Virus record (IMG/VR): IMGVR_UViG_3300007513_002727
Location: 28,943 to 92,942 of that record
Strand: one strand, 5' to 3'
DNA: 64,000 nt
Source of the DNA: a virus
A program made the position numbers and the translations under genes. A model generated the notes under the pieces. The model searched no databases, had not been told where the DNA came from, and was given only the letters and a program-made list of their open reading frames with translations. Shown here piece by piece: positions 20,801 to 53,643 of this stretch; positions within the stretch are counted from its first letter, which is position 1; every line of letters starts with the position of its first letter.

Positions 20801-20935
20801 TTATTTTTTTCGTTTACCCATGTAATGCTCAGATGGTTCGTAGTTCCATCGTTTGCCATGATGTCCACGGATATCTGCATACCACATTCTAAGTCTTACT
20901 ATAAATTTTCGAATTGCTCTATTTCTGATTGTCAC
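20801..20935 (-). CDS. 44-aa basic protein in the bL12 operon
   Basis: A GTG-started frame beginning directly after the TAA of the upstream gene (TAAGTG) and ending 9 bp before the bL12 start. The 44 residues are very basic and aromatic (RNRAIRKFIVRLRMWYADIRG, then a KRKK end). The seamless junctions and codon use argue that it is real. Size and charge suit an RNA- or ribosome-binding peptide, but no family is recognised. The quoted part is partial. Confidence 0.6.
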   Translation of the reverse strand: MTIRNRAIRKFIVRLRMWYADIRGHHGKRWNYEPSEHYMGKRKK

Positions 20936-21139
20936 TTATCTTCCTATCTTCTTTTTTCTACCAATTGGTAATTTTTGTTCTTTAACGAAAACCTCCCCTT
21001 TTTTCGTCTCCCACTCAATAGTTACCATCGGAGCCTTAGAAGATGCTTGAAACGACTTTAGAGCTTTCTTAAATGATGTTGCCTCAATTATTTTTTCTTC
21101 TGTTCCAGATATAATTTTAAATTCTCTCATTTTTGACAT
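20936..21139 (-). CDS. Small basic protein, first gene of the bL12-FTR1 operon
   Basis: 67 residues, beta-strand-rich (EFKIISGTEEKIIEATSFKKALKSF) with a basic end (GRKKKIGR). Function unknown. Its start codon lies 8 nt after a TACATT -10 box, so the mRNA may be leaderless. It is divergent from the tmRNA gene. Confidence 0.65.
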   Translation of the reverse strand: MSKMREFKIISGTEEKIIEATSFKKALKSFQASSKAPMVTIEWETKKGEVFVKEQKLPIGRKKKIGR

Positions 21140-21147
21140 AATAATTT

Positions 21148-21190
21148 AATGTAACATAAGATTGACTTTTTGTCAACTGTATGCTTAAAT
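21148..21190. promoter_or_regulatory. Overlapping divergent promoters (bL12 operon / tmRNA)
   Basis: TTGAC-TTTTT-GTCAA at 21162-21176 gives a -35 on each strand. Reverse: TTGACA (21176-21171), 17-bp spacer, TACATT (21153-21148). Forward: TTGACT (21162-21167), 17-bp spacer, TTAAAT (21185-21190) with a TGC extended -10. The two promoters share the same 15-bp dyad, so they would compete or be co-regulated. Confidence 0.55.
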
Positions 21191-21196
21191 ATTAAT

Positions 21197-21495
21197 AAGT
21201 TTGTTGACTAATAATTAATAAGCGGACAAGACGAGAGTTCGAATCTCTCCACCTCCACCAAATTTTGGTGGCTTATGTAATCCCTTTCGGGGGTGTTATT
21301 GGAAATCGATTGACGTCTAAACTTGTTACGAGAACTTGGACATGGTACTGACCTAACAGGCCGTTTTTAAATGCAAACAAAAGAGCATTAGGATTTGCTG
21401 ACTTTACAGTTGGTATGTCTGAATTGAGATTAGCGGCGTAATAACTGTTTAATTTCTGGGGTTTGGCCCACCTCGCAACAGAACGGGCCACTTCA
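21197..21495 (+). ncRNA. ssrA: Circularly permuted (two-piece) tmRNA
   Basis: The acceptor piece comes first: T-arm GAGAG-TTCGAAT-CTCTC (21233-21249), then CACCTCC and ACCA ending at 21260. A 28-nt spacer forms a hairpin with the CCA end. The coding piece starts at 21289 with GGGGGTG, which pairs fully with CACCTCC including a G3-U70 wobble, the alanine identity pair. Its 5' sequence (TTGGAAATCGA) fits tmRNA. The tag frame runs from GCA at 21373 to TAATAA at 21439, 22 residues beginning ANKRALG and ending ELRLAA. AAACTT/AAGTTT can form P2 between the pieces. It frees stalled ribosomes and tags the product for ClpXP. The 5' and 3' ends are estimates. Confidence 0.92.
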
Positions 21496-21573
21496 TTTAA
21501 AACAACATATAACTTATACCGTCATATAATTGATGCAACTATTGATTTAAATAATTGCGTCAAGGGGGAGGGT

Positions 21574-21885
21574 ATGTTTAAAAAGGCACAAAAACGAACA
21601 AATTATTGGTCTAAGATCAGAAAGAAGGCACCTAAAGTCCCTGATATAACTTGTCCTGACATTGATTGGGTAGTAAATCAATTAGAAAAAGCCATAGGCA
21701 AATCAATAACACAAACACAGTTTAAAAGAATAGAAAAAAAGATGGAAAAATTAAGAATAACAAACGAACAATTAAGAGAAAGCGGAATATACTGGCATGA
21801 CGCTTGTAAAGAAACTGTTCGTGATTTACTTGGAAAGAAAAAGAACTCTGATACACCGTGGTTTTATAGGAGCTCTTTGGATTAG
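21574..21885 (+). CDS. Small basic hypothetical protein
   Basis: 103 residues from the ATG at 21574, chosen because GGGGGAGGG lies just upstream; a longer in-frame extension would run into the tmRNA. Lys-rich and helical, with DITCPDIDWVVNQLEKAIGK and a C-terminal ESGIYWHDACKETVRDLL. Not recognised. It begins a run of small forward genes. Confidence 0.65.
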   Translation: MFKKAQKRTNYWSKIRKKAPKVPDITCPDIDWVVNQLEKAIGKSITQTQFKRIEKKMEKLRITNEQLRESGIYWHDACKETVRDLLGKKKNSDTPWFYRSSLD

Positions 21886-25608: not shown

Positions 25609-25814
25609 AAGAATTTAAATTAAACATTAAAATAGGTGACAAAGTAGAAGTAGGACGATTTCGTAATGTTACCACTAAAATTAAAGCAATCGAACTTGAC
25701 AATAACGGGCAACCTGTTATAATAACAAATAAAGGTGCAAAGAAATTATTAAGTTGCAGATTGGTAAAACTATATAAAACATCAAAACAACTACTAATGG
25801 AAAAAAAGAAATGA
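25605..25814 (+). CDS. Small beta-rich protein, paralog of the gene at 5259
   Basis: 69 residues, starting KEFKLNIKIGDKVEVGRF. The whole core aligns by eye with the 5259 protein, 20 kb away, with the same strand-turn-strand order. The two probably arose by duplication within the phage. Function unknown; a small barrel that binds protein or RNA is a possibility. Confidence 0.65.
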   Translation: MKEFKLNIKIGDKVEVGRFRNVTTKIKAIELDNNGQPVIITNKGAKKLLSCRLVKLYKTSKQLLMEKKK

Positions 25815-26533: not shown

Positions 26534-26695
26534 GTGACACTCACACACGGTTTAATATTAGGAATTGGTGGCACAATACTTACTTTAGTTGGCTTTGGTA
26601 TTGCTTTTTATACTGCTACGGCACAACAAAAAAAGAAACTACAAGATGAAGAAACTCAAAGAAAACATAAAAAATTGTATGGTAATTTTGGTTGA
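26534..26695 (+). CDS. 53-aa single-pass membrane protein (GTG start)
   Basis: A GTG-started frame immediately after the preceding stop (TAAGTG) and ending at 26695. One transmembrane segment (LILGIGGTILTLVGFGIAFY) is followed by a basic, charged tail (QQKKKLQDEETQRKHKKL). The same GTG-after-stop arrangement occurs at 20935. Size and shape suit a small envelope peptide. Function unknown. Confidence 0.6.
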   Translation: MTLTHGLILGIGGTILTLVGFGIAFYTATAQQKKKLQDEETQRKHKKLYGNFG

Positions 26696-26720
26696 CAAAA
26701 TACCAAAAATATAATATAAT
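26692..26720 (+). promoter_or_regulatory. Consensus sigma70 promoter
   Basis: TTGACA (26692-26697), 17-bp spacer, TATAAT (26715-26720): both hexamers are perfect. The predicted start, near 26727, is the first base of the structured RNA candidate. Confidence 0.8.
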
Positions 26721-28021: not shown

Positions 28022-28834
28022 ATGGAAGTCAAAAGAAAATTAAAACCAAGCGAAATAAATGCCAACTATAGTGCATTACCAAAAGATATTAATTCATACA
28101 TCGATGAGAGTGTGATGGCCAAACAGCCAGAGATAGATCTTTGGGAGTTCATGCAGACACGCCCAGATCAACTGTATGAAGAATGGGCATACGAAGTAGG
28201 ATCTGACACAACGACAAAATATGAGGCAAAAGCATTTACAAATCTAAACCTTAACGAAGATGATTTTTTTCAATTCATGAAAGAAAATAAACACACTTGT
28301 CAAAAAAAATACTACGAACGGAGACCATATCACAATGGTAGAAGTGAACTAACTGAAAACTTTCCAATGAAATGTGGATACAATGCTAGAAACACAGTTG
28401 AATATAATTGGGGACTTTATGGCAATAGCAATGAACAAGTAAAAGAGTTACTAGGTAGTCGTAAAGTATGGGAAGATAAAATTGGAATAGATTACGACAC
28501 TGCATTAATAAGATTATTAGCATATATGCCAGGAATGATTCTGCCATGGCACGTTGATAACTTAGGCAACTGGTGTAGAAACTATAAACATTTGAATCCA
28601 AATATTGATACTAGAATGTGTGACTTGGGTCCTATCAAAAGATATCTTGTAATGATTACTGATTGGCATTGGGGACACGTAATACAATTTGAAAATAGTT
28701 ACTTTCCTAATTACAAAAGCGGTGATGTATTTGATTTACCTATACCACGTCCACACTGCTCTGCTAATATGGGTATGAGAATAAAACTAACTTGTAGTAT
28801 AAGTGGTGCTCAAACAAAAGATTATACAAAATGA
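28022..28834 (+). CDS. 2-oxoglutarate/Fe(II) oxygenase-like protein 1
   Basis: 270 residues. The double-stranded beta-helix facial triad is visible: His177-x-Asp179 in PWHVDN and His245 in PRPHCSAN, with Arg253 or Lys255 to bind 2-oxoglutarate. Between them lies the ITDWHWGHVIQFEN block that recurs in its neighbours. It is the first gene of the oxygenase cluster, and closest to oxygenase 3 (both have NWGL and RLLxYMPGxxLPxH). It presumably hydroxylates or otherwise oxidises a small molecule or glycan; substrate unknown. Confidence 0.78.
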   Translation: MEVKRKLKPSEINANYSALPKDINSYIDESVMAKQPEIDLWEFMQTRPDQLYEEWAYEVGSDTTTKYEAKAFTNLNLNEDDFFQFMKENKHTCQKKYYERRPYHNGRSELTENFPMKCGYNARNTVEYNWGLYGNSNEQVKELLGSRKVWEDKIGIDYDTALIRLLAYMPGMILPWHVDNLGNWCRNYKHLNPNIDTRMCDLGPIKRYLVMITDWHWGHVIQFENSYFPNYKSGDVFDLPIPRPHCSANMGMRIKLTCSISGAQTKDYTK

Positions 28835-29553
28835 AACTAAAACATCCTATTTCAGAAACTAGGATTGACCCAAAAGTTGCTGTTCCAAAAGAAATATTAG
28901 AGCAGTATCCTTGGCATTGGGATCCAATCACAACTGATCATACAGATAACACACACTTTATGAAAAACATAGAGTTTGATTGGAAGGGTTTAGGGGATTG
29001 GGCAATAAAAAAATGCAATGAACATTTAACTCCTCAAAAATATTGGAGGTTTGATTACGAACAAGATGCAATATATCATGCAAAAGAAAACGTAAACAAT
29101 ATGCCAATTAAAGAACAAGCATTTCTTGCCTTTAAAAATAACACACACTGTGAAGAAAATAGTCAATATTTTAAAATTGCAAATGAAGAGTTTGAACATT
29201 GGCAAGAACCACTTATGGATATGTTTCCAGAACTAAAAAAAACTAAAATGGGTGTGAGTTTATTTGTTCAACCACCCGGTCACACTATGTTCACCCATGT
29301 AGACACCTACAGTAGTTTTATAAGACGTACAGGAGATACAAAAGCAGACTACACTATTTTAAGAAGATATATGGCTTTTGTTCGAGACTGGGATTTTGGG
29401 CATTTCTTTCATTATGGAAATCATTGTTTCAGTCAATGGAGAGCAGGAGACTGTTATGATCTAGTGCCTGGAGTATATCACGGTAGTGCTAATGCAGGAT
29501 TAAATCCTAAAATTACAATTCATTGGAGTGGTGAATTAAAAGATAATGGATAA
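28831..29553 (+). CDS. 2-oxoglutarate/Fe(II) oxygenase-like protein 2
   Basis: 240 residues with the triad His156-x-Asp158 (FTHVDTY) and His217 (VYHGSANAG), and Lys227 as likely co-substrate ligand. FVRDWDFGHFFHYGN matches the DW-x-x-G-H block of protein 1. It overlaps both neighbours by 4-8 bp. It is one of a set of diverged paralogs rather than a recent copy, so the enzymes may carry out successive or different oxidations. Confidence 0.78.
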   Translation: MKLKHPISETRIDPKVAVPKEILEQYPWHWDPITTDHTDNTHFMKNIEFDWKGLGDWAIKKCNEHLTPQKYWRFDYEQDAIYHAKENVNNMPIKEQAFLAFKNNTHCEENSQYFKIANEEFEHWQEPLMDMFPELKKTKMGVSLFVQPPGHTMFTHVDTYSSFIRRTGDTKADYTILRRYMAFVRDWDFGHFFHYGNHCFSQWRAGDCYDLVPGVYHGSANAGLNPKITIHWSGELKDNG

Positions 29554-30160
29554 TCAATATTTTAAAAAATTTCTTGCAGATAGAAATATTAATTTAAATG
29601 AACATATACAAATAGAAAAACTATGTTCTTTAGACATTGATCCAAAAGCATTTGAGAATTTTGCAAACAAACATAGAGATGAAGCCACTGTCAAATGGTA
29701 TCATCCAAGACCTTTCTTAAATGCAGAAACAAATGAACAGGCCATTAACGCAAACTGGATTGGTTATAATGAACACAACACTACTGAAACAAATTGGGGA
29801 CTAGATCCTAAACACAACAAAACTTTAAAAGAAATAATTGGTAAAGAAAACTTTAATAGATTAGGAATAGATCCTAATGAAACTTTATTAAGACTGTTAG
29901 AATATATGCCTGGACACTGTTTACCATTACACTATGACGGCTTTGAAGGATTTAAAAGATTATATGGCAAAGAAAACAGCACAAGATTTTTTGTTGCAAT
30001 AAGTGATTGGGATTGGGGTCATGCATTACAAGTTCATGATAATATTATTTCTAATTGGCAACCAGGCGACACTTATATTATTCCGGCAGGTGTATGCCAT
30101 GCCAGTGCAAATTTTGGCATTTCACCCAAGTACACATTGACTGTTACAGGAGTCAGATAA
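29546..30160 (+). CDS. 2-oxoglutarate/Fe(II) oxygenase-like protein 3
   Basis: 204 residues; triad His129-x-Asp131 (PLHYDGF) and His185 (VCHASANFG), Lys195 near the end. AISDWDWGHALQVHD is the shared block. Very close in layout to protein 1 but without its N-terminal extension. Its stop codon overlaps the aminotransferase ATG (TAATG). Confidence 0.78.
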   Translation: MDNQYFKKFLADRNINLNEHIQIEKLCSLDIDPKAFENFANKHRDEATVKWYHPRPFLNAETNEQAINANWIGYNEHNTTETNWGLDPKHNKTLKEIIGKENFNRLGIDPNETLLRLLEYMPGHCLPLHYDGFEGFKRLYGKENSTRFFVAISDWDWGHALQVHDNIISNWQPGDTYIIPAGVCHASANFGISPKYTLTVTGVR

Positions 30161-31209
30161 TGATTTCAAACGTAGCAGGTGATAGATTATACAATCAAAT
30201 TCACGAAAGACTTAATGATGCATATCACAAAATTCACACTTCTGGAAACTGGATTGATGGAGAATACTGTCAAAGTGCAGAACAAAAACTGAAACAAATT
30301 ACAGGAAGAAAACACGCAAGACTAATGACTTCAGCAACAAGTTCATTAATGGTTGCTTTGATATCTTGGAACATAAGAAATAAAAATGTTGCCTGTGTAA
30401 ATTACAGTTATGTTGCGAGTGCAAATCAAGCCGCTCTCTTAAACAATATAGATTTATTTGACGTTGATGAAAAAGGATTAATGCAATTAGATGAAATATT
30501 TGAACATGATCTTGTAATACCTGTTTCATTGTACGGCAATACTATTAATTACGATAATTTGAAAGTGGGTAAAGATACAAAAGTTATTGTTGATTGTGCT
30601 CAAAGTTTAGGAGCAAAGTATAAAAACAAACCTGATGGTAGTTTTGGTGATGCGGCAGTATTCAGTTTTGCAAGAAACAAACCTATAGCAACAGCAGGTA
30701 CTCATGGTGCTTTGGTTTGGGATGACGACTCCTTAACAACAATTATTCATGCAGTTTCTAACAATGGCAAATTAGGTAGAGATTCCAAGATACAAGCGTA
30801 CGGAATAAACGCTGTTCCTATGGAACTACAAGCGGCACAAATTGATATAGGATTAGATCATATGGGTGAATGGCAAGTAAAAAGAAAATCAATACATCAA
30901 TATTATGTAGAACAATTTAAAAATTTACCCTTAGAAATTATACACGCAAATGACTATTGTGAATCTAATTATCACAAGTTTGCTTTAAAAACAAATCAAA
31001 GAAACGATTTGTACAAACATTGTCAAAAAAATAACATACAGGCTTTATTACATTATACAGATAATTTTAGTGATTATTTTGGTTCTACTAAAGTGTTTCC
31101 AAACACTGATGCATTTTGTAAAACTGTAATTACATTACCAAATCATAGTTGGATGACTGATGCAGAAATAGAAACAGTTGCCAATACAGTGAAAGAATTT
31201 TATATATGA
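30160..31209 (+). CDS. DegT/DnrJ/EryC1-family PLP sugar aminotransferase
   Basis: 349 residues from ATG 30160. The fold is set by TSATSSLMVAL, VIVDCAQSLGAKY (PLP-ring Asp) and VFSFARNKPIATAGTHGALVW, whose Lys is the expected Schiff-base residue. These enzymes aminate keto-sugars bound to nucleotides, or related polyols. Sitting inside the oxygenase cluster, it suggests that the product is an amino-sugar or similar. It overlaps the SDR gene by 4 bp. Confidence 0.85.
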   Translation: MISNVAGDRLYNQIHERLNDAYHKIHTSGNWIDGEYCQSAEQKLKQITGRKHARLMTSATSSLMVALISWNIRNKNVACVNYSYVASANQAALLNNIDLFDVDEKGLMQLDEIFEHDLVIPVSLYGNTINYDNLKVGKDTKVIVDCAQSLGAKYKNKPDGSFGDAAVFSFARNKPIATAGTHGALVWDDDSLTTIIHAVSNNGKLGRDSKIQAYGINAVPMELQAAQIDIGLDHMGEWQVKRKSIHQYYVEQFKNLPLEIIHANDYCESNYHKFALKTNQRNDLYKHCQKNNIQALLHYTDNFSDYFGSTKVFPNTDAFCKTVITLPNHSWMTDAEIETVANTVKEFYI

Positions 31210-31742
31210 AAAATATTGCAGTAATAGGACATGATGGCAAACTTGGATCTGAGTTAATGAAACAACCAAATACGATTGCTGTTCCATGGATGTTTGAAAA
31301 CGATCACCAAGTTATTGCAAAATGGTTTGATGATAATCCTGCTGTTGATACTGTTTGGCACGTTGCAAGAACTTGTAGAAAACAAGGCACAAGACGTGAC
31401 CATGAAACTTTTCTAACAGAACAAAAAGGTATGCTAGACTTAATGCAAACAAGAGCAAAACATTGTAGGTTTGTTTATGCATCAAGTAAGATAGTGTATG
31501 GACTAGGAGGTGTCAGCGACAACAAAGACGAAGTATTGCCAGTGCAAAAAGTGGCAGAACATTTTTATGATGGCAAAGTTGGCATTCATAACTGTCCTGA
31601 ATGGCAAACCACAAGGCAATTAAACATAAATGAACTGGACACCAAAAGAACCATTTACGCCTGTACAAAATTATCAAATGAACAGATAATACAAAAACAT
31701 TGTTCAAACTTTAAAATTATTAGAATATGGGATATAGCATAG
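31206..31742 (+). CDS. Short SDR/RmlD-like NAD(P)-binding protein
   Basis: 178 residues. The N-terminal GHDGKLGSELM is a modified Rossmann loop, VYASSKIVYG gives the Ser, and YACTKLSNEQ gives the YxxxK catalytic pair. It is much shorter than usual epimerases or reductases (about 300 residues) and lacks the substrate-binding C-terminus. It may be a minimal reductase acting with the neighbouring aminotransferase. It overlaps oxygenase 4. Confidence 0.7.
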   Translation: MKNIAVIGHDGKLGSELMKQPNTIAVPWMFENDHQVIAKWFDDNPAVDTVWHVARTCRKQGTRRDHETFLTEQKGMLDLMQTRAKHCRFVYASSKIVYGLGGVSDNKDEVLPVQKVAEHFYDGKVGIHNCPEWQTTRQLNINELDTKRTIYACTKLSNEQIIQKHCSNFKIIRIWDIA

Positions 31743-32443
31743 ATTACAAAAAACTTTACGAGCAAGTAGAAACTGTAAATGATTGGTTAGACCTTTTAAA
31801 AAATCCTAATTTTAATTGGACTGAGTGTATGTTAAGTTTGTCTAATTATAAACCAGGTGATTACAGTTTTGAAAAAATAGGCACCATAAATGGCACATGG
31901 AACTTTCAATCAGACAATTTAAAATTAAAAGCATCTGAAAGTTTAGATAATAATGAGTATGCAGACAAATCTGAAATAGATTTTAAAAAACAATATAATT
32001 TTCATCACGGGTATAAAGAATATGAATCAAATGAATTAGCCAACTCTATTGCTAAAGCACTAGGATTTACAGATTATAAAGCGGCTATTAATATTCAAGA
32101 ACCTGGTAGTATAAAAAATCTTCATGCAGATTCTTTAAATGGATGGTTCAAAGATGTTGAAAAGTATCAGCACGTTGCATTAGATAAAAATCTTAAACAA
32201 CCTAAAGGCACACAAAATTTACACCGTGTGTTTGTTGCATTAACTGATTGGAAACCAGGCTGGATGTGGCAGTTTGGAGTAGACCATTGGACTAATTGGA
32301 AAAGGGGCGACGTGGTTAATTTTGATTGGAGAAATGTACCACACTGTACAGCAAATGCAGGCTATTCACCACGTCCTATATTAAAGATTACAGGAATAAG
32401 CGAATTTATTAAAAAAAATAAACACTTTAATATTGTTATATAA
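31727..32443 (+). CDS. 2-oxoglutarate/Fe(II) oxygenase-like protein 4
   Basis: 238 residues; triad His133-x-Asp135 (NLHADSL) and His206 (VPHCTANAG), with Arg216. ALTDWKPGWMWQFG and WTNWKRGDVVNFDW are shared with oxygenase 6, its closest relative (WTQWKKGDVVFFDW). The start lies inside the SDR gene. A perfect late promoter overlaps its stop. Confidence 0.78.
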   Translation: MGYSIDYKKLYEQVETVNDWLDLLKNPNFNWTECMLSLSNYKPGDYSFEKIGTINGTWNFQSDNLKLKASESLDNNEYADKSEIDFKKQYNFHHGYKEYESNELANSIAKALGFTDYKAAINIQEPGSIKNLHADSLNGWFKDVEKYQHVALDKNLKQPKGTQNLHRVFVALTDWKPGWMWQFGVDHWTNWKRGDVVNFDWRNVPHCTANAGYSPRPILKITGISEFIKKNKHFNIVI

Positions 32444-32446
32444 ATA
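32439..32446 (+). promoter_or_regulatory. T4-type late promoter TATAAATA
   Basis: Perfect consensus overlapping the end of oxygenase 4. It is followed by a 33-nt leader with CTATAGGAGA as ribosome binding site for oxygenase 5, which is therefore likely a late, well-expressed gene. Confidence 0.6.
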
Positions 32447-32479
32447 CTACGGAGTCAAAAAACCTATAGGAGACAAACT

Positions 32480-33229
32480 ATGTATAAGTTCGAAACTAAA
32501 ACAAACAAAGAAGGCGTTATAGAGGACGTGATCAATCACCAACCAGAAGGATACAATCCTACAACTGGTATCTATGCTTCTTCTTACATTTTCCAAGGTG
32601 ACTGGGAAGATGAACTTAAGGCTCTAAACTTCACAAAGAGAGGTCTAGGTTTTAAAGAAGTTGAGAAAGTTGATGCTATGAAAGGCCAAGACACTCAATA
32701 CCTTTACAACTCTTTTAGAAGTGCTGATGGTAAGGACACAACTCACGATCAGTTACAAGACTTCTGGAAAGAAGAAAATCCAGCAGATTACAAAGATACT
32801 AATTCAAAACTTTCTTCACCAAAACTAGGCGCAATTTGCGATTGGTTTCAATGTGAAAAAACTAGAATTAGAATCTTCCAACAACAACCAGGTGCTTATA
32901 TGCAAATGCACACAGATTTTGATAACCAAAGAGGTACAACTCTAGGTGAAACTTTAAGAATATTTGTGCAATTGACAGATCAACCAGGTGGTGCTTGGTA
33001 TAGACTTAAGACTACGGATTCAGAAGTAAGCATAAATCTACAAAAAGGTCAATTTTTGATTTTCAATCCAGATCATACTGGACACCAAACTCAAAACCTA
33101 ACTGACATTCCAAGAAATGCTTTCATGTTAGTTGTTAAAAGAAATGAATGGTTAGATTCTTTAACTAAGAACGAGACTATGACTTTTATCAATGTAAATG
33201 AACTTGCAGAGCAAAAAAAAGCAGTTTAA
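32480..33229 (+). CDS. 2-oxoglutarate/Fe(II) oxygenase-like protein 5
   Basis: 249 residues; His144-x-Asp146 (QMHTDFD), a distal His at 199 or 202 (PDHTGHQTQN) and Arg212 as 2-oxoglutarate ligand. It is more diverged than the other members. Its codon choice looks more regular (many AAG, CTT, TTC) and it has its own late promoter and ribosome binding site, suggesting high late expression. It could even be virion-associated. Substrate unknown. Confidence 0.7.
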   Translation: MYKFETKTNKEGVIEDVINHQPEGYNPTTGIYASSYIFQGDWEDELKALNFTKRGLGFKEVEKVDAMKGQDTQYLYNSFRSADGKDTTHDQLQDFWKEENPADYKDTNSKLSSPKLGAICDWFQCEKTRIRIFQQQPGAYMQMHTDFDNQRGTTLGETLRIFVQLTDQPGGAWYRLKTTDSEVSINLQKGQFLIFNPDHTGHQTQNLTDIPRNAFMLVVKRNEWLDSLTKNETMTFINVNELAEQKKAV

Positions 33230-33253
33230 ACTAGTTTAAACTACTTTACTAAA

Positions 33254-33283
33254 TCGTAGCGGTGTGTTATAATACCGCTACGA
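33254..33283. promoter_or_regulatory. 10-bp hairpin enclosing an extended -10 box
   Basis: TCGTAGCGGT pairs with ACCGCTACGA; the 10-nt loop is GTGTTATAAT, which contains TATAAT (33268-33273) with TG at the extended position. TTTACT 17 bp upstream could serve as -35. It could be an operator dyad over a promoter, or a terminator lacking a U-tract. Confidence 0.5.
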
Positions 33284-33288
33284 AACTT

Positions 33289-34035
33289 ATGATTGACTCT
33301 TACACTCAACAACAATGGGATAGTATTATAACTGTCAAAGATCTATTTAGGTTTTTAGAAGATCCTAAATGTGATGTAATGCAATTATCTGACCATCTTG
33401 TTGATATTAACAAAAGTTGTTTTTGGAAAGCGGCCAACATTAATTTTAACTTTAATGTAGATGAAATTCTAAATGCCAAACCAATTATTAAACATAATGA
33501 ATTATCAACACATACCATGGATGCTAATGAATATAAACGACATCAACAATACGGTTATGGAAATGGATATGATAAAATTTTGCCAAATAAAGATACTCAT
33601 GAAATTGCAAAAATACTAGGATTTGAAGACCCATACACCATAACTGTAAACAATCAACCGCCTGGTGCATTAATGGGAAGACACGTTGACTTCTGTTCTA
33701 GTTTTCTTTATGAATATAAAGATATTGCTCCAAATATTATTAATTTAGAATATGATAAAGCATTAGGCAAACCAAAAAATTTTAAAAACATTATCAGATG
33801 TTTTGTAGCACTAGCAGACTGGCAACCTGGCCAAGTAGTAAATTTTGAACCAAACTTTTGGACACAATGGAAAAAGGGCGATGTTGTATTTTTTGATTGG
33901 CAGAATACTCCACACGCAACAATTAATGCTGGATTTCATCAAAGACCATTTATAAAAATTACAGGCACTTTAAAAGATGATACATGGGTAATGAACGCAA
34001 AAGATACTAATGAAATTAAACAGTTTTCAATATAA
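33289..34035 (+). CDS. 2-oxoglutarate/Fe(II) oxygenase-like protein 6
   Basis: 248 residues from the ATG at 33289, downstream of the hairpin. Triad His132-x-Asp134 (GRHVDFC) and His209 (TPHATINAG), with Arg219. Closest to oxygenase 4 (shared ALADWQPGQVVNFEPNFW and KKGDVVFFDW). It overlaps the PP-loop gene by 26 bp. Confidence 0.78.
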   Translation: MIDSYTQQQWDSIITVKDLFRFLEDPKCDVMQLSDHLVDINKSCFWKAANINFNFNVDEILNAKPIIKHNELSTHTMDANEYKRHQQYGYGNGYDKILPNKDTHEIAKILGFEDPYTITVNNQPPGALMGRHVDFCSSFLYEYKDIAPNIINLEYDKALGKPKNFKNIIRCFVALADWQPGQVVNFEPNFWTQWKKGDVVFFDWQNTPHATINAGFHQRPFIKITGTLKDDTWVMNAKDTNEIKQFSI

Positions 34036-41556: not shown

Positions 41557-42810
41557 ATGGGAGATGATAGTTTAGTCTGTTCCTTTTGCAGTAAATCTCG
41601 AAAAGACGTTACAAAAATGATTGTAGGTGCAACTAAAGTTGCTATCTGTAATGAGTGTGTAAAACTTTGTATTGAAATATTAGATGAAGACATAATTAAA
41701 TCCAAAGCAGAACAATTTGCTAAAGGTGATAAAGATATTCTTAACCCTGTTAATATTAAAGAATATTTAGATCAATATATTATAGGACAAGATGCCGCAA
41801 AAACTGTATTGTCAGTAGCAGTATCTAACCACTATAAAAGAATTACAAATCCACCTAAAGATTTTGAGTTAGATAAATCAAATGTATTATTATTAGGAGC
41901 CACTGGTGCAGGTAAAACACTTATGGCTAGAACAATAGCACAATATTTAGATGTACCTGTTGCTATTGCAGATGCAACAACATTAACCGAGTCTGGCTAC
42001 GTTGGTGAAGATGTAGAAAATGTAGTACAAAAATTATACGCAAATTCAAGTGGTGACATTCAAAAAACTGAACGTGGTATTATATTCATAGATGAAATAG
42101 ATAAGATTACACGTAAAAGTGAGAATACTTCTATAACAAGAGATGTATCTGGAGAAGGTGTACAACAAGGATTACTTAAAATTGTAGAAGGAACTGAATG
42201 CAGAATTATGCCACAGGGAGGCAGAAAACATCCTGACCAACAAATGGTTACTATTAATACTAAAAATATATTGTTTATAGTAGGTGGGGCATTTACAGAA
42301 TTAGAAAAACAAATACGAAACAGAAAATCAAGTGGTATTGGTTTTGGTTCTAAATTAAAAGACGATGATATAAAAAATTATCTTATTGACGTAAGACCCG
42401 AAGACTTAATAAAATATGGCCTAATTCCAGAATTTGTAGGAAGATTTTCAATGATTACTCATGTTGATGATTTAAGTGAATCACAATTAGTGCAAATACT
42501 TACAGAGCCTAAAAATGCTTTAATAAAACAAATGCAATATTTGTTTGGATTAGACGAGATTAAATTAGAATTTAGCAAAGATGCCAAACTATCTGTTGCT
42601 AAAAAAGCCAAAGCATTAGGTACAAATGCCCGAGGTTTGAAAAATATTGTAGATAGAGTATTATTACCATTCCAATTTGATGCCCATGAAATGAAAAATA
42701 AAGGTGTCATCACAATTAAAATAACAAGTGACGTGGTTGACAAAAATGCCGATCCAGTGTTACTATTTAAGAAGCAAGATGGAACAATACCAAAGAAACA
42801 ATCAGTTTAA
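41557..42810 (+). CDS. clpX: ATP-dependent protease unfoldase ClpX
   Basis: 417 residues, full length. Zinc-binding domain cysteines 8, 11, 31, 34; Walker A GATGAGKT (114-121); pore-1 loop GYVG (147-150); Walker B IIFIDEIDK; RKH loop (223-225); and the ClpP-docking IGF loop (261-263). All parts needed to unfold LAA-tagged substrates and pass them to ClpP are present. No clpP lies in the window, so it would dock on host ClpP. It is grouped with bS21, hsp20, dnaK and clpS, and the phage tmRNA tag ends in LAA. Confidence 0.97.
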   Translation: MGDDSLVCSFCSKSRKDVTKMIVGATKVAICNECVKLCIEILDEDIIKSKAEQFAKGDKDILNPVNIKEYLDQYIIGQDAAKTVLSVAVSNHYKRITNPPKDFELDKSNVLLLGATGAGKTLMARTIAQYLDVPVAIADATTLTESGYVGEDVENVVQKLYANSSGDIQKTERGIIFIDEIDKITRKSENTSITRDVSGEGVQQGLLKIVEGTECRIMPQGGRKHPDQQMVTINTKNILFIVGGAFTELEKQIRNRKSSGIGFGSKLKDDDIKNYLIDVRPEDLIKYGLIPEFVGRFSMITHVDDLSESQLVQILTEPKNALIKQMQYLFGLDEIKLEFSKDAKLSVAKKAKALGTNARGLKNIVDRVLLPFQFDAHEMKNKGVITIKITSDVVDKNADPVLLFKKQDGTIPKKQSV

Positions 42811-43111
42811 AAACTTTAGAAACTCTTGGAATAATAAACCCTCTAGAGGGCGGAAACCTAAACCACCAATGCCACCTGGCTGTAATTACTATGCGGAAGT
42901 ACGCGATGGTGATGATCCTATGCGAGCTTATCGTAGAATTAAAAAGAAAATTAAAGATGATAAGTTCTTTGAAGAAATTAAAGAACGACAATATTACCAA
43001 AAACCATCATTTAAAAAACGTGAAAAAGCAAAACGTAAAAAAATAGTTCTAAAAAAGCTACAACGAGAACGTGACGATAACCGTTTTATAGGTAAAACCA
43101 ATAGAAATTAA
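42779..43111 (+). CDS. rpsU: 30S ribosomal protein bS21-like
   Basis: 110 residues from the ATG at 42779, inside the end of clpX. After a Gly/Pro-rich N-terminal extension of about 45 residues, the bS21 pattern follows: VRDGDDPMRAYRRIKKKIKD, then KERQYYQKPSFKKREKAKRKK, matching the AlRRFK, RRREFYEKPS and KRKR signatures. bS21 helps mRNA start-site selection. Phage bS21 genes are known in viral surveys. Together with bL12 it gives this phage two mobile-type ribosomal proteins. Confidence 0.8.
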   Translation: MEQYQRNNQFKNFRNSWNNKPSRGRKPKPPMPPGCNYYAEVRDGDDPMRAYRRIKKKIKDDKFFEEIKERQYYQKPSFKKREKAKRKKIVLKKLQRERDDNRFIGKTNRN

Positions 43112-43132: not shown

Positions 43133-43160
43133 TTGACATATAGTACATATATGTTATAAT
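43133..43160 (+). promoter_or_regulatory. Sigma70 promoter for hsp20
   Basis: TTGACA (43133-43138), 16-bp spacer, TATAAT (43155-43160) in TGTTATAAT. A late-type ATAAATA follows at 43166-43172. The 70-nt leader has AAGGT/ACCTT complementarity and ends in a strong TTAGGAGGAAAG site. Confidence 0.75.
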
Positions 43161-43234: not shown

Positions 43235-43687
43235 ATGAAAAACAATCTATCTATCTTTAATAACTTAAGACCCATAACAGTAGGGTTTGACAATATGTTT
43301 GATCATTTTGAACATATGTTAGACGACGGCGGTTTCTTTAGAAACGGTACTGTTAGTAACTTCCCACCTTACAATATTGAAAAGACTGGAAAAAATTCTT
43401 ATAATGTAGAACTTGCACTTGCAGGTTTTAATAAAAAGGATATAGAAGTTACATATGAGGATAACCTTTTATCAGTAAAATCTAAAAAAGAAGATACTAC
43501 TGAACAAACTGATGCCGATGGTAATATGATTCATAGAGGTATTTCAAAAAGATACTTCGCAAAATCATTTACTATTGCAAACGACGTTGAAATAAAAGGA
43601 GCTGAACTTAAAGATGGTTTACTTGTAATTGCTTTGGAACGAATACTTCCGGAGGCAAAAAAAGCAAAAACTATCGAAATAAAGTAA
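43235..43687 (+). CDS. Small heat-shock protein Hsp20
   Basis: 150 residues. An alpha-crystallin domain spans about 47-145: PPYNIEKTGKNSYNVELALAGF, the EVTYEDNLLSVKSKK strand pair, DGLLVIALER (G-x-L motif), and a C-terminal IEI that docks on neighbouring subunits. It holds unfolding proteins for DnaK. Hsp20 genes are common in T4-like marine phages. It has both a sigma70 and a late-type promoter. Quoted segments are partial. Confidence 0.93.
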   Translation: MKNNLSIFNNLRPITVGFDNMFDHFEHMLDDGGFFRNGTVSNFPPYNIEKTGKNSYNVELALAGFNKKDIEVTYEDNLLSVKSKKEDTTEQTDADGNMIHRGISKRYFAKSFTIANDVEIKGAELKDGLLVIALERILPEAKKAKTIEIK

Positions 43688-43771: not shown

Positions 43772-45661
43772 ATGAGTAAAATTATAGGAATAGACTTAGG
43801 TACTACAAATTCATGCGTATCATTAATGGAAGGTACACAGGCAAAAGTATTAGAAAATGCAGAAGGCAAAAGAACAACACCTTCAATAGTAGCATTTGGA
43901 GATGAGAAATTAGTTGGAGAACCTGCTAAAAGACAAGCGGTTTCAAATCCAGCAAATACAATATTCGCGGCTAAAAGATTAATTGGAAGAAAATTTGATG
44001 GAGATTCTGTACAAAAAGATGTACAAACATCACCTTTTAAAATAGTAAAAGCAGATAATGGAGATGCTTGGATTGAAGCAAAAGGTAAAAAATATTCACC
44101 AGCACAGATCTCAGGTTTCGTTTTACAAAAAATGAAAGAAACTGCTGAAAAATATTTAGGACAAGAAGTTAAAAAAGCTGTAATAACAGTACCAGCATAC
44201 TTTAATGACTCACAAAGACAAGCAACAAAAGACGCAGGTAAAATTGCAGGACTTGAAGTTGAACGTATTGTAAACGAACCAACTGCGGCGGCACTTGCAT
44301 ATGGTTTAGATAAAAAGAAATCAGGCACAGTTGCAGTGTACGACCTAGGTGGTGGTACATTTGATATATCTATATTAGAAATAGGCGACGGAGTATTTGA
44401 AGTTAAATCTACAAATGGTGATACATCATTAGGTGGAGAAGATTTTGATAATGTTCTAGTTGATTATCTTTGTAGTGAATTTAAAAAAGATACTGGTATA
44501 GACATAAAAACAGACAATTTAGCACTTCAAAGAATTAAAGAAGCGGCAGAAAAAGCTAAATGTGAATTATCATCAGCATTACAAACAGATATTAATTTAC
44601 CATTTCTTACTGCTGATAAAACTGGACCAAAACACTTAAACATTAAACTTACAAGAGCAAAATTTGAATCATTAACAGAATCATTAATTAGAAAAACATT
44701 TGCTCCTTGTAAAACAGCATTAAAAGATTCAGGAATTAGTAAAGACAAAATAGATGAAGTTATCCTTGTAGGAGGTATGACTCGTATGCCAAAAGTATTA
44801 GAAACAGTTAAAAGTTTCTTTGGCAAAGAACCACACACAGGAGTTAATCCAGACGAAGTTGTAGCAATTGGAGCCGCAATACAGGGTGGAGTATTACAAG
44901 GTGACGTTAAAGATGTATTACTTTTAGATGTAACACCTTTATCACTTGGTATTGAAACACTTGGTGGTGTTGCTACTAAACTTATTGAAAAGAATACAAC
45001 AATACCTACAAAGAAAAGTCAAGTATTTTCAACTGCTGAAAACAATCAAGCGGCAGTTACAATTAGAGTTGTACAGGGTGAAAGAGAAATGGCTACTGAC
45101 AATAAACAACTTGGAAACTTTAACTTAGAAGGCATTCCACCAGCACCAAGAGGTGTACCTCAAATTGAAGTAACATTTGATATAGATGCAAATGGTATTG
45201 TAAATGTGTCTGCAAAAGATAAAGGCACAGGTAAAGAACAAAAAATTACAATACAAGCATCAGGTGGATTAAGTGAAGCCGATATTGAAAAAATGGTTAA
45301 AGATGCTGAAGCAAACAAAGAAGCAGACAAAAAGAAAAGAGAAGAGGTTGATGCTAGAAATCATGCTGACACACTTGCTGACTCTACAGAAAAATCACTT
45401 AAAGAACACGGTGACAAAGTTTCTGTAGAAGATAAAACAAAAATAGAAACTAGCCTAGCTGATTTAAAAGAAGCACTTAAAGGTAATGACGTTGAATCTA
45501 TAAAAAGTAAAACAGGTGCCCTTACCGAAGCATCAATGAAACTAGGTGAAGCAATCTATAAAACTCAACAAGAACAAGCAAAACCAGAAGCAACTGAGAG
45601 TACATCAGGCGGTGAAAAAGAAGACGTTGTTGATGCAGATTTTGAAGAAGTTAAAAAATAA
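43772..45661 (+). CDS. dnaK: Hsp70 chaperone DnaK, complete
   Basis: 629 residues with every landmark: [61 protein letters not shown], the linker [19 protein letters not shown], a complete substrate-binding domain and lid, and the [10 protein letters not shown] end typical of bacterial DnaK. It is not a fragment. No dnaJ or grpE is seen here, so it would use host partners. A full DnaK in a phage is rare and suggests strong demand for folding. It has its own promoter. Confidence 0.97.
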
Positions 45662-45724: not shown

Positions 45725-46024
45725 ATGGCAACAAATATACAAACACTAACCAAAGAAAAAACTAAACTTGATGAACCAAGTTTATACGATGTTATTTTTT
45801 TAAATGATAATATTACTACGCAGGAATTTGTAGTTAGGGTTTTAAAACAAATTTTTAATAAATCACAAGAACAAGCAGAAGCAATTATGAAAAAAATACA
45901 TAATGACGGACAAGGTACTGTAGGTTCTTATGTCCACGAAGTTGCAGAACAAAAAGGCATTGAGACTACTTTACTTGCACGGCAAGAAGGAATGCCACTG
46001 CAAATAAAAGTTAAGAGACAATGA
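45725..46024 (+). CDS. clpS: Clp protease adaptor ClpS
   Basis: 99 residues. DVIFLNDNITTQEFVVRVLKQIF and AEAIMKKIHNDGQGTVGSYVHEVAEQK match ClpS, including the ND pair and the His of the N-degron pocket; it ends in MPLQIKV. ClpS delivers N-end-rule substrates to ClpAP and can inhibit SsrA-tag degradation by ClpA. With phage ClpX and tmRNA it may steer host proteolysis. The next gene starts 3 bp before its stop. Quoted motifs are partial. Confidence 0.92.
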   Translation: MATNIQTLTKEKTKLDEPSLYDVIFLNDNITTQEFVVRVLKQIFNKSQEQAEAIMKKIHNDGQGTVGSYVHEVAEQKGIETTLLARQEGMPLQIKVKRQ

Positions 46025-48816: not shown

Positions 48817-49023
48817 ATGATAAAAGAAGCACTTATAAAAAAACTAGAAGGCGATATTGCTAAAATAGAAGCTAACATTGTAACTTACCTAAGCAATCCT
48901 ATTTCTGTAGTAGCAGATCATATTGATTATATTACTCCTATTGAAAAGGAATTAGAAAAGTTATCTGCGGCGAAAGGTAAATTAGTATCTTTAAAAAATA
49001 TTAAATTTAAGTTAGATGAATGA
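48817..49023 (+). CDS. Small coiled-coil protein at the head of the SUF operon
   Basis: 68 residues, a helix-rich heptad pattern ([19 protein letters not shown], then [18 protein letters not shown]). It has no recognised family. It overlaps sufB by 8 bp and is the first gene after the SUF promoter. It might be a scaffold or regulator for the operon, which is a guess from position. Confidence 0.6.
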
Positions 49024-50446
49024 TGTACTTCAAGACCGACTTAACAAAAAATATGATGCTGGGTTTACAACAAACGTTGAATCAGTAACATTACCTCCAG
49101 GCCTTAACGAAGACATAGTAACACAAATCTCAAAAATTAAAAAAGAACCTAAATGGTTGCTTGAATTTAGATTAAAAGCATACCAACGATGGAAAATTTT
49201 AAAACAGCCTGATTGGGCAAATCTTAATATTAAACCTATAGACTATCAAGCAATATCATATTACTCAGCACCAAAGCCAGGTCCTAAATCATATGATGAT
49301 GTAGATCCTGAAATTAAAAAAGACTTTGAAAAGTTAGGCATACCATTAGCAGAAAGAGCCGCACTAGCAGGTGTAGCCGTTGATGCAGTATTTGATTCTG
49401 TATCTATTGCAACTACATTCAAAGATAAGTTAGCAGAACTAGGAATTATATTTTGTTCATTCTCAGAAGCAGTACAAAAACATCCTGATCTAGTAAAAAA
49501 ATATATGGGCTCTGTTATTCCAATTACAGACAATTATTTTGCAACATTAAATTCTGCTGTCTTTACAGATGGAACTTTTGTTTATGTTCCTAAAGGAGTA
49601 AGATGTCCTATGGAACTATCTACATACTTTAGAATCAATGCGGCTAACACAGGACAATTTGAACGGACTTTAATTATAGCTGACGAAGGAAGTTATGTAA
49701 GTTATTTAGAAGGCTGTACTGCACCAATAAGAAAAGAAAGTCAATTACACGCCGCCAACGTAGAACTTGTAGCATTAGATGATGCAGAAATAAAATATTC
49801 AACAGTACAAAATTGGTACCCAGGAGATAAAGATGGCAAAGGCGGCATATACAATTTTGTAACTAAACGTGGAAAATGTAAAGGAACAAACTCAAAAATT
49901 TCTTGGACACAAGTAGAAACAGGATCAGCTATTACTTGGAAGTATCCAAGTTGTATATTACAAGGAGATAATTCTACTGGTGAATTTTATTCTGTTGCTG
50001 TAACAAACAATTATCAACAAGCAGATACAGGTACTAAAATGATACACCTAGGCAAAAATACAAAATCAACTATTGTATCTAAAGGAATTTCGTTAGGACA
50101 CTCATCAAATACATATAGAGGTTTAGTAAAAATTAATAAAAATGCTGACAATTCAAAAAACTTTACTCAATGCGATTCATTAATGCTAGGTAATAATTGT
50201 TCTGCTAGAACTATACCATATATTGAAAATAAAAATGTATCTAGTAATTGCAGTCACGAAGCAACTACATCCAAAATTAATGATGAACAATTATTTTATG
50301 CAAGGCAACGTGGACTAGACGAAGAAAATGCTACTAATTTAATTGTAGCAGGATTCTGTAAACAAGTATTTCAAAACTTACCTATGGAGTTTGCAGTAGA
50401 AGCCAATAAACTATTAGAAGTTAGTATGGAAGGAGCAGTTGGATAA
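49016..50446 (+). CDS. sufB: Fe-S cluster assembly protein SufB
   Basis: 476 residues, full length. PEWLLEFR-type start ([16 protein letters not shown]), [40 protein letters not shown], and the C-terminal [21 protein letters not shown] are all SufB signatures. SufB is the scaffold on which Fe-S clusters are built with SufC and SufD. It heads sufB-VOC-sufE-sufC. A phage-carried SUF scaffold is unusual and points to a need for Fe-S assembly during infection. Quoted motifs are partial. Confidence 0.96.
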
Positions 50447-50874: not shown

Positions 50875-51265
50875 ACTTACAGAATATAAAAATAATATCG
50901 AAGCCTTACAAGAAATCGATAATTTAGAAGTTTATAGATGGTTAATTTCACTTGGTGCAAAGTTAGACGATGATCCTTTAAGTGAAGAAAAACGTATTGA
51001 CAAAAATAAAGTTAGTCGTTGTCAATTTGACTTATACGTTGATTTTGAAGATGGCAAATTTAAAGCATGGAGTAATGCCGCAATAGCAGGTGGCTATGCT
51101 TATATATTGTTAGATATTTTTAATTCACTACCTCCAACAACAAAAATTACAGTAGAAGATTTTCAACAAATTAAACTAGACAAACTATTAACAATGAATA
51201 GAACAACCGGCTTCTATCAAATGATTGAAATGATTATAAAGAAAATACAAAATGCTAAAAATTAA
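50858..51265 (+). CDS. sufE: SufE-like sulfur acceptor
   Basis: 135 residues. WLISLGAKLD, NKVSRCQFDLYV (Cys55 at the sulfur-accepting position), and AIAGGYAYILLDIFN fit SufE. The usual NKVxGCxSxVW motif is altered to NKVSRCQFDLY, but the cysteine is kept. SufE takes persulfide sulfur from a cysteine desulfurase and passes it to SufB. No sufS or iscS is in the window, so it would rely on a host desulfurase. Confidence 0.85.
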   Translation: MNYSNKLTEYKNNIEALQEIDNLEVYRWLISLGAKLDDDPLSEEKRIDKNKVSRCQFDLYVDFEDGKFKAWSNAAIAGGYAYILLDIFNSLPPTTKITVEDFQQIKLDKLLTMNRTTGFYQMIEMIIKKIQNAKN

Positions 51266-51989
51266 AAATTTAAAAGTATCAATTAATAATAAAGAAATAA
51301 TAAAAGATTTAAATCTTGAAATTAAACAAGGCGAGATTCATGCCCTCATGGGTCCAAACGGTTCTGGCAAAAGTACTTTGTCTAATGTTTTAGCTGGAAA
51401 AGATGGCTATAATGTTACAGGAGAGATACTTTACAAAGGAGAAGATCTTTTAAAAATGTCAATAGAAGAAAGAGCAAGAAAAGGATTGTTTATGGCTTTT
51501 CAATATCCTATAGAAATTCCTGGTGTTAATACAATTAATTTTTTAAAAAGTTCTTTAAATGTGGTTCGAAAATCTAATAAAAAAGAAGCAATAGATACTT
51601 TTGAATTTTTAGATTTAGTAAAAGAAAAAGCTAAAGCTCTTAATGTTAATGGTTCTATACTTAATAGACATCTAAACGTAGGGTTCTCGGGTGGAGAAAA
51701 AAAGAAAAATGAAATATTACAAATGTCTGTTTTAGAACCTATGTTTGCTATTTTGGACGAAACAGATTCTGGATTAGACATTGATTCTTTAAAAATAATT
51801 TCTAATGGTATTAATTCTTTAAGAAGTATATGTAGATCTTTTTTAATTATTACACACTATCAACGTTTATTAGAACACATTAAACCAGACTTTGTTCACG
51901 TACTTGCAGATGGAAAAATAATCAAAACTGGTTGCAGTGAATTAGCTGAAGAATTAGACAAAGTAGGATATGGAGATAAAAATAGTTAG
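51252..51989 (+). CDS. sufC: SUF ATPase SufC
   Basis: 245 residues, ABC ATPase: MGPNGSGKSTLSNVLAG (Walker A), FSGGEKKKNEILQ (signature), AILDETDSGLDIDSLKI (Walker B with SufC-type DSGLD), and the H-loop ITHYQRLL. It drives conformational change of the SufB/SufD scaffold. It overlaps sufE and the TonB receptor gene, so all are translated together. Confidence 0.95.
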   Translation: MLKIKNLKVSINNKEIIKDLNLEIKQGEIHALMGPNGSGKSTLSNVLAGKDGYNVTGEILYKGEDLLKMSIEERARKGLFMAFQYPIEIPGVNTINFLKSSLNVVRKSNKKEAIDTFEFLDLVKEKAKALNVNGSILNRHLNVGFSGGEKKKNEILQMSVLEPMFAILDETDSGLDIDSLKIISNGINSLRSICRSFLIITHYQRLLEHIKPDFVHVLADGKIIKTGCSELAEELDKVGYGDKNS

Positions 51990-53643
51990 AATAGTTCTAA
52001 TATTATTCTTTGCATGGATTACTACGATTCAAGCAGAGATTGTAACAATAGAAAAACGTGGTGTTGCAGATGATATTATAACTTGTGAATGGGAAAACCA
52101 AGCAGGTGTTCCTTGTGTTACAATTAGCAAATCATTACCCAATTCAAATGCAATATCAGATAAAGTTTCTCCCACAACTGTAATCACTAAAAAACAAATT
52201 GAAGAAAATAATTTAATTGACTTACCTAAAGTTTTAAATTTTGTTAATGGTATCAATGTAACACAATCTGGATCAACTGGACAACAAACGTCTGTGTTTA
52301 TGAGAGGTACAAACTCAAACCATACATTAGTTTTATTAAATGGCATACCTATTAATGATTTTTCTACTCCAACAGGAGCATTTGACTTTGGACAAGACTT
52401 TATGTCTACTGTTACGCAAGTTGAAGTTTATAAAGGAAGTGCTGGTGCTCACTTCGGTGCTGATGCTATTGGTGGTGCTATTAATTTTGTAACTACTGTT
52501 GACTATGAAAACAAATTTTCAGTTGGTGGCAATGGTGACAGTAAAACTATACAAGGAAATTACACAAAAGTTTTAAACGACTGGCATATAAACGTACAAG
52601 GTGGAACACACGAATCTGAAACAGTATCAGCATTATCAGGTGGTGCTGAAACAGATGGAACTAAAAATAAATCAATTGGCGTTAATATTATAAAATGGTT
52701 TTCAGACAAATTAAAATTTAGATCTAGTTTGTTTACACGAAACACATTTACAGAGTTAGATGGACATTCGTTGGCTATTGAAAATGGATTTAGCGATAAT
52801 TCGTTTTATGCTTTTCAAACCGGATTTGATTATATAACTAAAGACTCCATCAACTCCCTAACACTTCATACACACGAATACGATAGAGAATATGAGTCTG
52901 ACAATTACAATTCTAAATCTTATACTATCAGAACAGAACACCAAACTAAAAAGTATGGATTAGGATTTGATTACAAATACGATCAATCACTAACTGCTGA
53001 TAATGATAATGTTGGCTTATTTGGAAATTTTAATTACAACATTTTTTCATTTCATGCAAGAAAAGATAATGACAACGATAGTTATAAAGTAGGATTTTTT
53101 AAAGAGATAGCACCTAACTTTAATATTAGAGGTAACCATTCAACAGGATATAAAAATACAACTCTTTATACACTAGAAGAACAAAGTAATTCAAACGAAT
53201 TAAGTTTTGATTATAATGATTTGACATTATCTCTTTTTCAATCTGATATTGGTGATTTAAACACAGATGGCGTAGAACTATCTTATAATATTGACAACTT
53301 TACAATATATGGATCACATTTAAACAGTAAGAAAAATGATACAATTCAATTAAGACGTCCTGAATGGATTCTTGGTGTTAATCATAATACACTATTACCT
53401 GACAATTTCCAATTAATTACAAATTACAAATTTGTAGGAGAGCATCTAGACGTACATAATTCCAATTGGTCTACTATTCCTATGCCAGAAACACACTTAT
53501 TAGACATAGGTATAACAAAAAACTATTGGGGTTACGAGTTAGGTTTAAATATTAATAACATATTAGATGAAGATTATGAAGCACCACATGGTTTTAGTCA
53601 AAATGGTCGAAACCTTAATTTTATCTTTAAAAGAAAATTCTAA
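51970..53643 (+). CDS. TonB-dependent outer-membrane receptor
   Basis: 557 residues. The signal peptide is about 1-22 (IVRIVLILFFAWITTIQAE). The plug domain has PTTVITKKQIEENNLIDLPKVL, VFMRGTNSNHTLVLLNGIPIND and VEVYKGSAGAHFGADAIGGAINFVT, followed by a beta-barrel ending in the outer-membrane signature Phe (FIFKRKF). BtuB-like or siderophore-type specificity is possible. It overlaps sufC by 20 bp, so it is tied to iron-sulfur metabolism; a B12-type radical SAM gene follows. Quoted motifs are partial. Confidence 0.92.
   Translation: MEIKIVRIVLILFFAWITTIQAEIVTIEKRGVADDIITCEWENQAGVPCVTISKSLPNSNAISDKVSPTTVITKKQIEENNLIDLPKVLNFVNGINVTQSGSTGQQTSVFMRGTNSNHTLVLLNGIPINDFSTPTGAFDFGQDFMSTVTQVEVYKGSAGAHFGADAIGGAINFVTTVDYENKFSVGGNGDSKTIQGNYTKVLNDWHINVQGGTHESETVSALSGGAETDGTKNKSIGVNIIKWFSDKLKFRSSLFTRNTFTELDGHSLAIENGFSDNSFYAFQTGFDYITKDSINSLTLHTHEYDREYESDNYNSKSYTIRTEHQTKKYGLGFDYKYDQSLTADNDNVGLFGNFNYNIFSFHARKDNDNDSYKVGFFKEIAPNFNIRGNHSTGYKNTTLYTLEEQSNSNELSFDYNDLTLSLFQSDIGDLNTDGVELSYNIDNFTIYGSHLNSKKNDTIQLRRPEWILGVNHNTLLPDNFQLITNYKFVGEHLDVHNSNWSTIPMPETHLLDIGITKNYWGYELGLNINNILDEDYEAPHGFSQNGRNLNFIFKRKF

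Follow-up and report, generated by a model that had tools for sequence, protein, structure and literature searches.

The 64,000-nucleotide stretch described here (the window) spans bases 28943-92942 of the 92,942-base linear virus record IMGVR_UViG_3300007513_002727 (contig G000). It carries genes for two ribosomal proteins, bS21 and bL12; the former is accompanied by chaperone and unfoldase genes and the latter lies opposite a permuted transfer-messenger RNA (tmRNA) (Table 1). The record stems from an uncultivated virus of bacteria that is related to the T4-like marine phages. It is important to point out that all contigs compared in this work, G000 included, are fragments from which a part of the genome is missing.

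Table 1. Coordinates of the ribosomal protein genes and associated features in the window
Feature	Position	Strand	Evidence
p67, first gene of the p67-p44-bL12 operon	20936..21139	-	open reading frames (ORFs) in the same place in L011, L014, L020, L022, L123; promoter spacing
p44, small basic protein, 44 aa, RLRMWYADIRGHHGKRWNYEPSEHYMG	20801..20935	-	upstream of bL12
bL12 (L7/L12), full length, two domains, 123 aa	20420..20791	-	PF00542, PF16320, TIGR00855, PDB sequence matches
TTGAC-N5-GTCAA palindrome, TTGACTTTTTGTCAA	21162..21176		each arm a candidate -35 box of one divergent promoter
Permuted (two-piece) tmRNA	21165..21532	+	ARAGORN; RF04321 80.8 bits (cut-off 47), RF01849 59.2 bits (cut-off 50)
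p93-type ORF 3′ of the tmRNA	21463..21885	+	likely start ATG 21574; homologous ORFs by the tmRNA in L011, L014, L020, L022, L123
ClpX unfoldase, 417 aa	41557..42810	+	NF003745 534 bits, TIGR00382 499 bits, PF06689 zinc finger
bS21 (rpsU-like), 110 aa	42779..43111	+	PF01165, TIGR00030, PHROG 21469, PDB sequence matches, structure model, relatives in L056, L177
Sigma-70-type promoter between bS21 and hsp20	43133..43160	+	consensus scan, 12/12 match, TG before -10; consensus match only
Hsp20 small heat-shock protein	43235..43687	+	PF00011 63.7 bits, PHROG 432
DnaK (Hsp70)	43772..45661	+	PF00012 909 bits
ClpS adaptor	45725..46024	+	PF02617 89 bits

Identity and divergence of bS21 and bL12

A preliminary description, made from the sequence alone, had placed bL12 and bS21 together in one phage, and curated profile models applied to the window proteins bear this out. 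The identity of bL12 is confirmed by the full-length equivalog TIGR00855 (105.8 bits, cut-off 84.4, residues 1-123) and by both Pfam domains, PF00542 (88.5 bits, cut-off 25.9) and PF16320 (30.1 bits, cut-off 25), the dimerisation domain being included. The protein resembles solved L7/L12 over almost the whole chain, and is predicted to bind uL10 and translational GTPases. The bS21 signatures that the description had read in the second protein, and for which it had suggested a hidden Markov model search, are equally clear: both curated models are passed, Pfam PF01165 with 35 bits (cut-off 27) and the NCBIfam equivalog TIGR00030 with 32.8 bits (cut-off 28.95), and there are further matches to PHROG 21469 'ribosomal protein S21' (E 8e-8) and to solved bS21 chains in the PDB.

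The protein is made up of a bS21 core (residues ~38-98) and a variable N-terminal extension (residues ~1-36). The conserved basic core of the family (A/R/K positions, RxYYxKPS) is present; A50, R52, K55, R70, K75, S77 and R81 are invariant across 12 phage bS21 homologues, while A50, R52, K55, R70, K75 and P76 are also found in the E. coli sequence. An AlphaFold2 model of the protein is helical, with a mean predicted local distance difference test (pLDDT) score of 70. Its only PDB fold matches, four in number and all from mitoribosomal small-subunit entries, have E values of 0.1-0.6, and three of the four reach a probability of 0.99 at E ~0.1; the matched chains are presumed to be bS21m, since 5aj3_U, the same chain, bears that name in the sequence search. 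Relative to contig G005, the nearest relative, the ratio of non-synonymous to synonymous substitutions (dN/dS) is ~0.20-0.22 for bS21 and ~0.11 for bL12 (NG86; dS is high and the values are rough) and, judged by these ratios, both proteins are under purifying selection. Searching 50,697 phage records by tblastn with the window bS21 and bL12 gave no match, whereas a canonical marine bS21 used as query did retrieve phage isolates; a scan with two extended bS21 sequences retrieved only G005.

The extension had been characterised as Gly/Pro-rich, which it is not: the residues that abound in its 36 positions are Asn, Pro, Lys and Arg (7 N, 6 P and 8 K/R, against 2 G). Structure prediction, likewise proposed in the preliminary description, assigns no secondary structure to the first ~46 residues, and pLDDT across the extension is 51-61. 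The length of the extension varies from ~36 residues in the window to ~30 in G045, ~22 in G005 and ~21 in L175 and L176, other homologues having none, and the window and G005 extensions have only a short NNKP stretch in common. A conserved binding module was considered and rejected, the extension not being conserved between G000, G005 and G045, and the best reading of the model is a variable, basic tail that is predicted to be disordered. An in-frame ATG at 42871, just ahead of the core, would allow for a product with almost no extension. Preference is given to the start at 42779, albeit not proven, because bS21 also begins within the 3′ end of clpX in G005 and G045.

Gene neighbourhoods of bS21 and bL12

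The bS21 gene of the window is embedded in the order 185-aa ORF, clpX, bS21, hsp20, dnaK, clpS, 114-aa ORF. G005 shows the same succession from clpX to the 114-aa ORF, and G045 has the 185-aa ORF, clpX, bS21, hsp20, clpS and the 114-aa ORF, without dnaK. The 3′ end of clpX overlaps the start of bS21 by 32 nt in the window, by 26 nt in G005 and, depending on the start codon, by 32-41 nt in G045. Outside this lineage, the arrangement of an AAA+ gene, bS21 and hsp20 recurs in L003, L005, L008, L009, L010, L031 and L032 and in the phages HTVC008M, Mosig and PA5oct, some members of this count being closely related to one another; the upstream AAA+ gene is mostly CobS-like, and is ClpX in PA5oct. 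The arrangement was not seen in the flanks examined around bS21 of Melnitz, Kolga, L175, L176 and L051. Overall, gene order in distant phages suggests a tie between bS21 and both an unfoldase and a small heat-shock protein. The consensus promoter between bS21 and hsp20 is followed by a strong Shine-Dalgarno (SD) sequence ahead of hsp20. Another promoter-like site upstream of bS21 (42737-42766) was discarded; it lies within clpX coding sequence, and its presence in G005 may reflect coding alone.

The bL12 gene is the last in a minus-strand operon with the order p67, p44, bL12. This operon is divergent from a permuted tmRNA in six contigs (the window, G005, G008, G014, G016 and G045), with 406-459 bp between bL12 and the tmRNA in the five that were measured. 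The sequence TTGAC-N4-6-GTCAA occurs a single time in the window, and the palindrome, with four or five nucleotides between its arms (TTGAC-N4/5-GTCAA), is present in 6/6 bL12-tmRNA contigs. In all six, a spacer of 17 nt separates each arm from a -10-like hexamer of the strand to which the arm belongs; on the tmRNA side this hexamer is TTAAAT, preceded by TG, in 6/6. If the arms are the -35 boxes of both strands, the two promoters would therefore overlap. The bL12 operon and the tmRNA thus appear to share overlapping divergent promoters whose consensus matches are conserved, and by way of this common promoter region bL12 appears to be tied to ribosome rescue. Another possible role of the palindrome is as the operator of a dimeric regulator.

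The tmRNA has an acceptor of the form GGGGGUG/CACCUCC-ACCA with an encoded CCA and retains the G3-U70 pair. Its tag, translated from the window sequence, comprises 22 residues, ANKRALGFADFTVGMSELRLAA, encoded at 21373-21438 and ending in LAA, and in an alignment of six is closely similar to the tags of five related contigs; the tag GMSELRLAA reported by ARAGORN is only the end of it, and has been replaced by the conserved 22-residue version. The permuted tmRNAs of L057 and L059 (contigs G019 and G001) have tags that are very unlike this one (AVNEDFALAA; ANAFKPEVTVPVSIFADAELVAA), which suggests other hosts or another origin. The p93-type ORF on the 3′ side of the tmRNA has no family match above cut-off.

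At least 591 viral contigs encode homologues of p44, and 13 of its residues are invariant in 31 homologues; there is no match to it in Pfam, PHROGs or NCBIfam, and its structure model is a helix of low confidence. In other contigs p44 is mostly located away from bL12, and is therefore not specific to ribosomal protein genes. Homologues of p67 detected by blast are present in further loci. A gene for an FTR1-family iron permease (19755-20345, minus strand) adjoins bL12, as it does in L015.

Co-occurrence, known phages and host

bS21 and bL12 are found together in six contigs (G000, G005, G019, G025, G026 and G045), among which G025 and G026 do not differ from each other in the sequence of either protein. 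When only bL12 contigs of at least 40 kb are considered, 5/8 also encode bS21 (G000, G005, G019, G026 and G045) and no bS21 was found in G021, G023 and G027, a proportion that is a lower bound given that all contigs are fragments. bL12 is absent from the six cultivated bS21 phages that were searched (Mosig, HTVC008M, Melnitz, Kolga, PA5oct and Paride).

The presence of two ribosomal proteins in one phage is not new. In the pelagimyophages, which are likewise marine and T4-like, S21 is a core protein encoded by all genomes and L12 is encoded by some PMP-A genomes (PMC7029224). What is new is the gene context of bL12 and bS21, each in a conserved neighbourhood: PMC7029224 assigns S21 to no specific cluster, whereas bS21 is found here in a conserved AAA+ gene-bS21-hsp20 neighbourhood, and a search of that paper's main text gave neither tmRNA nor ClpX. 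The Pelagibacter phages HTVC008M and Mosig come close, with bS21 flanked by an AAA+ gene and hsp20 and with a permuted tmRNA, but their AAA+ protein is CobS-like rather than ClpX, their bS21 is short and they lack bL12.

The order clpX-bS21-hsp20-clpS is matched in PA5oct, a Pseudomonas jumbo phage (Wroclawvirus), where clpX and bS21 overlap by 14 nt and ClpX is 42% identical to that of the window. A second Pseudomonas jumbo phage of Wroclawvirus, Paride, has the gene sizes and overlap of PA5oct, the gene before bS21 being annotated as hypothetical. Unlike the window, both encode a bS21 that is short and canonical, lack bL12 and give no match to a permuted tmRNA, and both are cultivated on P. 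aeruginosa; the terms searched revealed no mention of S21, Clp or heat-shock proteins in the papers on the two phages. The Methylophilales phage Melnitz (PMC9004378) combines a two-piece tmRNA with bS21, but it has no bL12 and its bS21 does not adjoin an AAA+ gene or hsp20. Phages of Bacteroidetes also encode bS21, in their case among capsid genes and read as late (PMC9723584), and PhiMa05 likewise encodes more than one ribosomal protein, although its six are other ones (PMC13157829).

The host is probably an alphaproteobacterium of the SAR11 kind. Indirect clues point in this direction, namely the match of the tmRNA to an alphaproteobacterial model and the 79% identity of p44, the neighbour of bL12, to proteins from four Pelagibacter phage isolates; the presence of DUF6267 is a further indirect hint at a pelagimyophage. 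The bL12 tree contains no SAR11 reference. A scan of genome contigs for bL12 returned only Verrucomicrobia; this result was a product of exact peptide patterns, and hence was not used as host evidence.

Proposed maintenance of translation and alternative roles

bL12 exchanges on uL10, and bS21 exchanges on the 30S platform. We consider it fairly probable that the virus is a large T4-like phage, probably infecting a host of the SAR11 kind, and that its bS21 and bL12 are true orthologues that would be produced in infected cells and enter host ribosomes by exchange; their expression, ribosome incorporation and effect are what we infer from the genes. That they enter host ribosomes is likely in view of a precedent: when E. 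coli expresses phage bS21 and bL12, these are incorporated into its ribosomes (PMC6375957). Several observations weigh on the other side. Ribosomes with the bS21 of HTVC008M reached only ~5% of wild-type protein output in vitro, and the purification of ribosomes with tagged viral bL12 was not achieved (PMC6375957). The bS21 of this lineage is divergent, its closest relative, that of G005, staying below both curated cut-offs (25.7 versus 27 for PF01165) yet being 68% identical to the window protein. ClpP was not found in G000 or G005, and SmpB in none of the records searched; any rescue or proteolysis would have to depend on host SmpB and ClpP, unless the missing portion of the genome encodes them. 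Finally, the assignment of the host is indirect.

In mechanistic terms, phage bL12 would become part of the stalk, attached to host uL10, and would recruit IF2, EF-Tu and EF-G, while phage bS21, with its floppy basic tail, would sit on the 30S platform beside the 3′ end of 16S rRNA, the site of mRNA selection. The purpose would be to keep translation running and clean during host shut-down, by a supply of exchangeable proteins, tmRNA-mediated rescue of stalled ribosomes and the handling of damaged, tagged or unfolded proteins. Such a maintenance of translation seems most likely, and is favoured over a switch to leaderless mRNAs or a changed mRNA preference because of the genes that neighbour bS21 and bL12. 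A more elaborate and distinctly tentative version envisages a coordinated 'ribosome refit and rescue', in which the bidirectional promoter co-induces bL12 and the tmRNA, bS21 is made together with the unfoldase, the heat-shock proteins and ClpS, and p44 is a new ribosome-associated factor. If true, ribosomes would be rebuilt and unstuck, and faulty products removed, while the phage infects slow-growing hosts. The conserved neighbours offer a handle on why phages encode ribosomal proteins, and as PA5oct and Paride share the clpX-bS21-hsp20-clpS order, the bS21 part is accessible to standard genetics with a phage and a host that are both in culture.

Alternatively, the two proteins could retune initiation: the bS21 tail would alter the contact between the 16S rRNA 3′ end and the mRNA, bL12 would alter factor recruitment, and phage mRNAs that lack an SD or are leaderless would be preferred. 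This idea, which goes back to the preliminary description and its 'many leaderless starts', is unproven and in our estimation unlikely. It accords with the location of bS21 at the anti-SD (PMC9723584, PMC9976891), with the selective translation proposed for Bacteroidetes phages (PMC9723584) and with the 57% of starts that have no SD-like trinucleotide. The remaining 43% of the 67 starts nevertheless represent an enrichment over random positions (22%), as do strong anti-SD duplexes (27% versus 13%), and a missing SD does not equal a missing leader, because most genes lie at most 60 bp from the preceding gene. Sigma-70-like promoters with a -10 element ending 4-9 nt before the start were found for 5/66 genes against 1.3 expected; leaderless candidates are thus few, and the general claim is weak. 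What does hold is a single conserved case: the ATG of p67 follows the -10 box by 5-8 nt in 6/6 contigs (8 nt in the window), which therefore predicts a transcript start at or next to the ATG and makes p67 a conserved leaderless candidate, in keeping with retuned initiation. The bS21 extension, for its part, is not conserved among G000, G005 and G045, which makes a specific role of this module in selecting mRNAs unlikely.

It is also conceivable, though we regard it as quite improbable, that bS21 is mainly extra-ribosomal, a small basic RNA-binding or adaptor protein acting with the neighbouring unfoldase and heat-shock proteins. Conservation of the AAA+ gene-bS21-hsp20 neighbourhood in distant phages would fit such a role, as would the variability of the tails and the weak scores against the models within this lineage, and the occurrence of bS21 in a non-ribosomal ribonucleoprotein elsewhere (PMC12054373); against it, the core residues of ribosomal bS21 are retained and the equivalog cut-off is passed, and gene adjacency does not prove interaction. 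Lastly, the notion that cellular genes were acquired by chance as passengers, or that the contig is cellular or chimeric, derives from the many metabolic genes on the 93-kb record and from profile searches that gave no match for gp23 or terminase in it, and is largely refuted by the identical gene order and conserved protein sequences in independent contigs, by DUF6267, which was present in each of the eight contigs tested but in 0/14 cellular controls, by the tail-spike-like and phage-type ribonucleotide reductase genes within the window, and by the relative G026 (48.7 kb), which unites gp23 (the T4 capsid protein), terminase, bS21 and bL12 on one contig.

Several other genes were noticed in the record. 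A TonB-dependent receptor-like protein is encoded at 51970-53643 (plus strand; Plug domain PF07715, 78 bits), close to iron-sulphur assembly genes for a SufB-like protein with a SUFBD core (49016-50446, plus strand) and an ATP-binding cassette ATPase resembling SufC (51252-51989, plus strand). Similar ORFs form a run at 28022-34035 (plus strand) and have a common pattern, RxFVALxDW, WxxGD and H...N, that by eye is perhaps that of related hydroxylases. Two ORFs at 9245-11720 of L066 (~24245-26720 of G000) resemble, again by eye, TctA and TctC of the tripartite tricarboxylate transporter.
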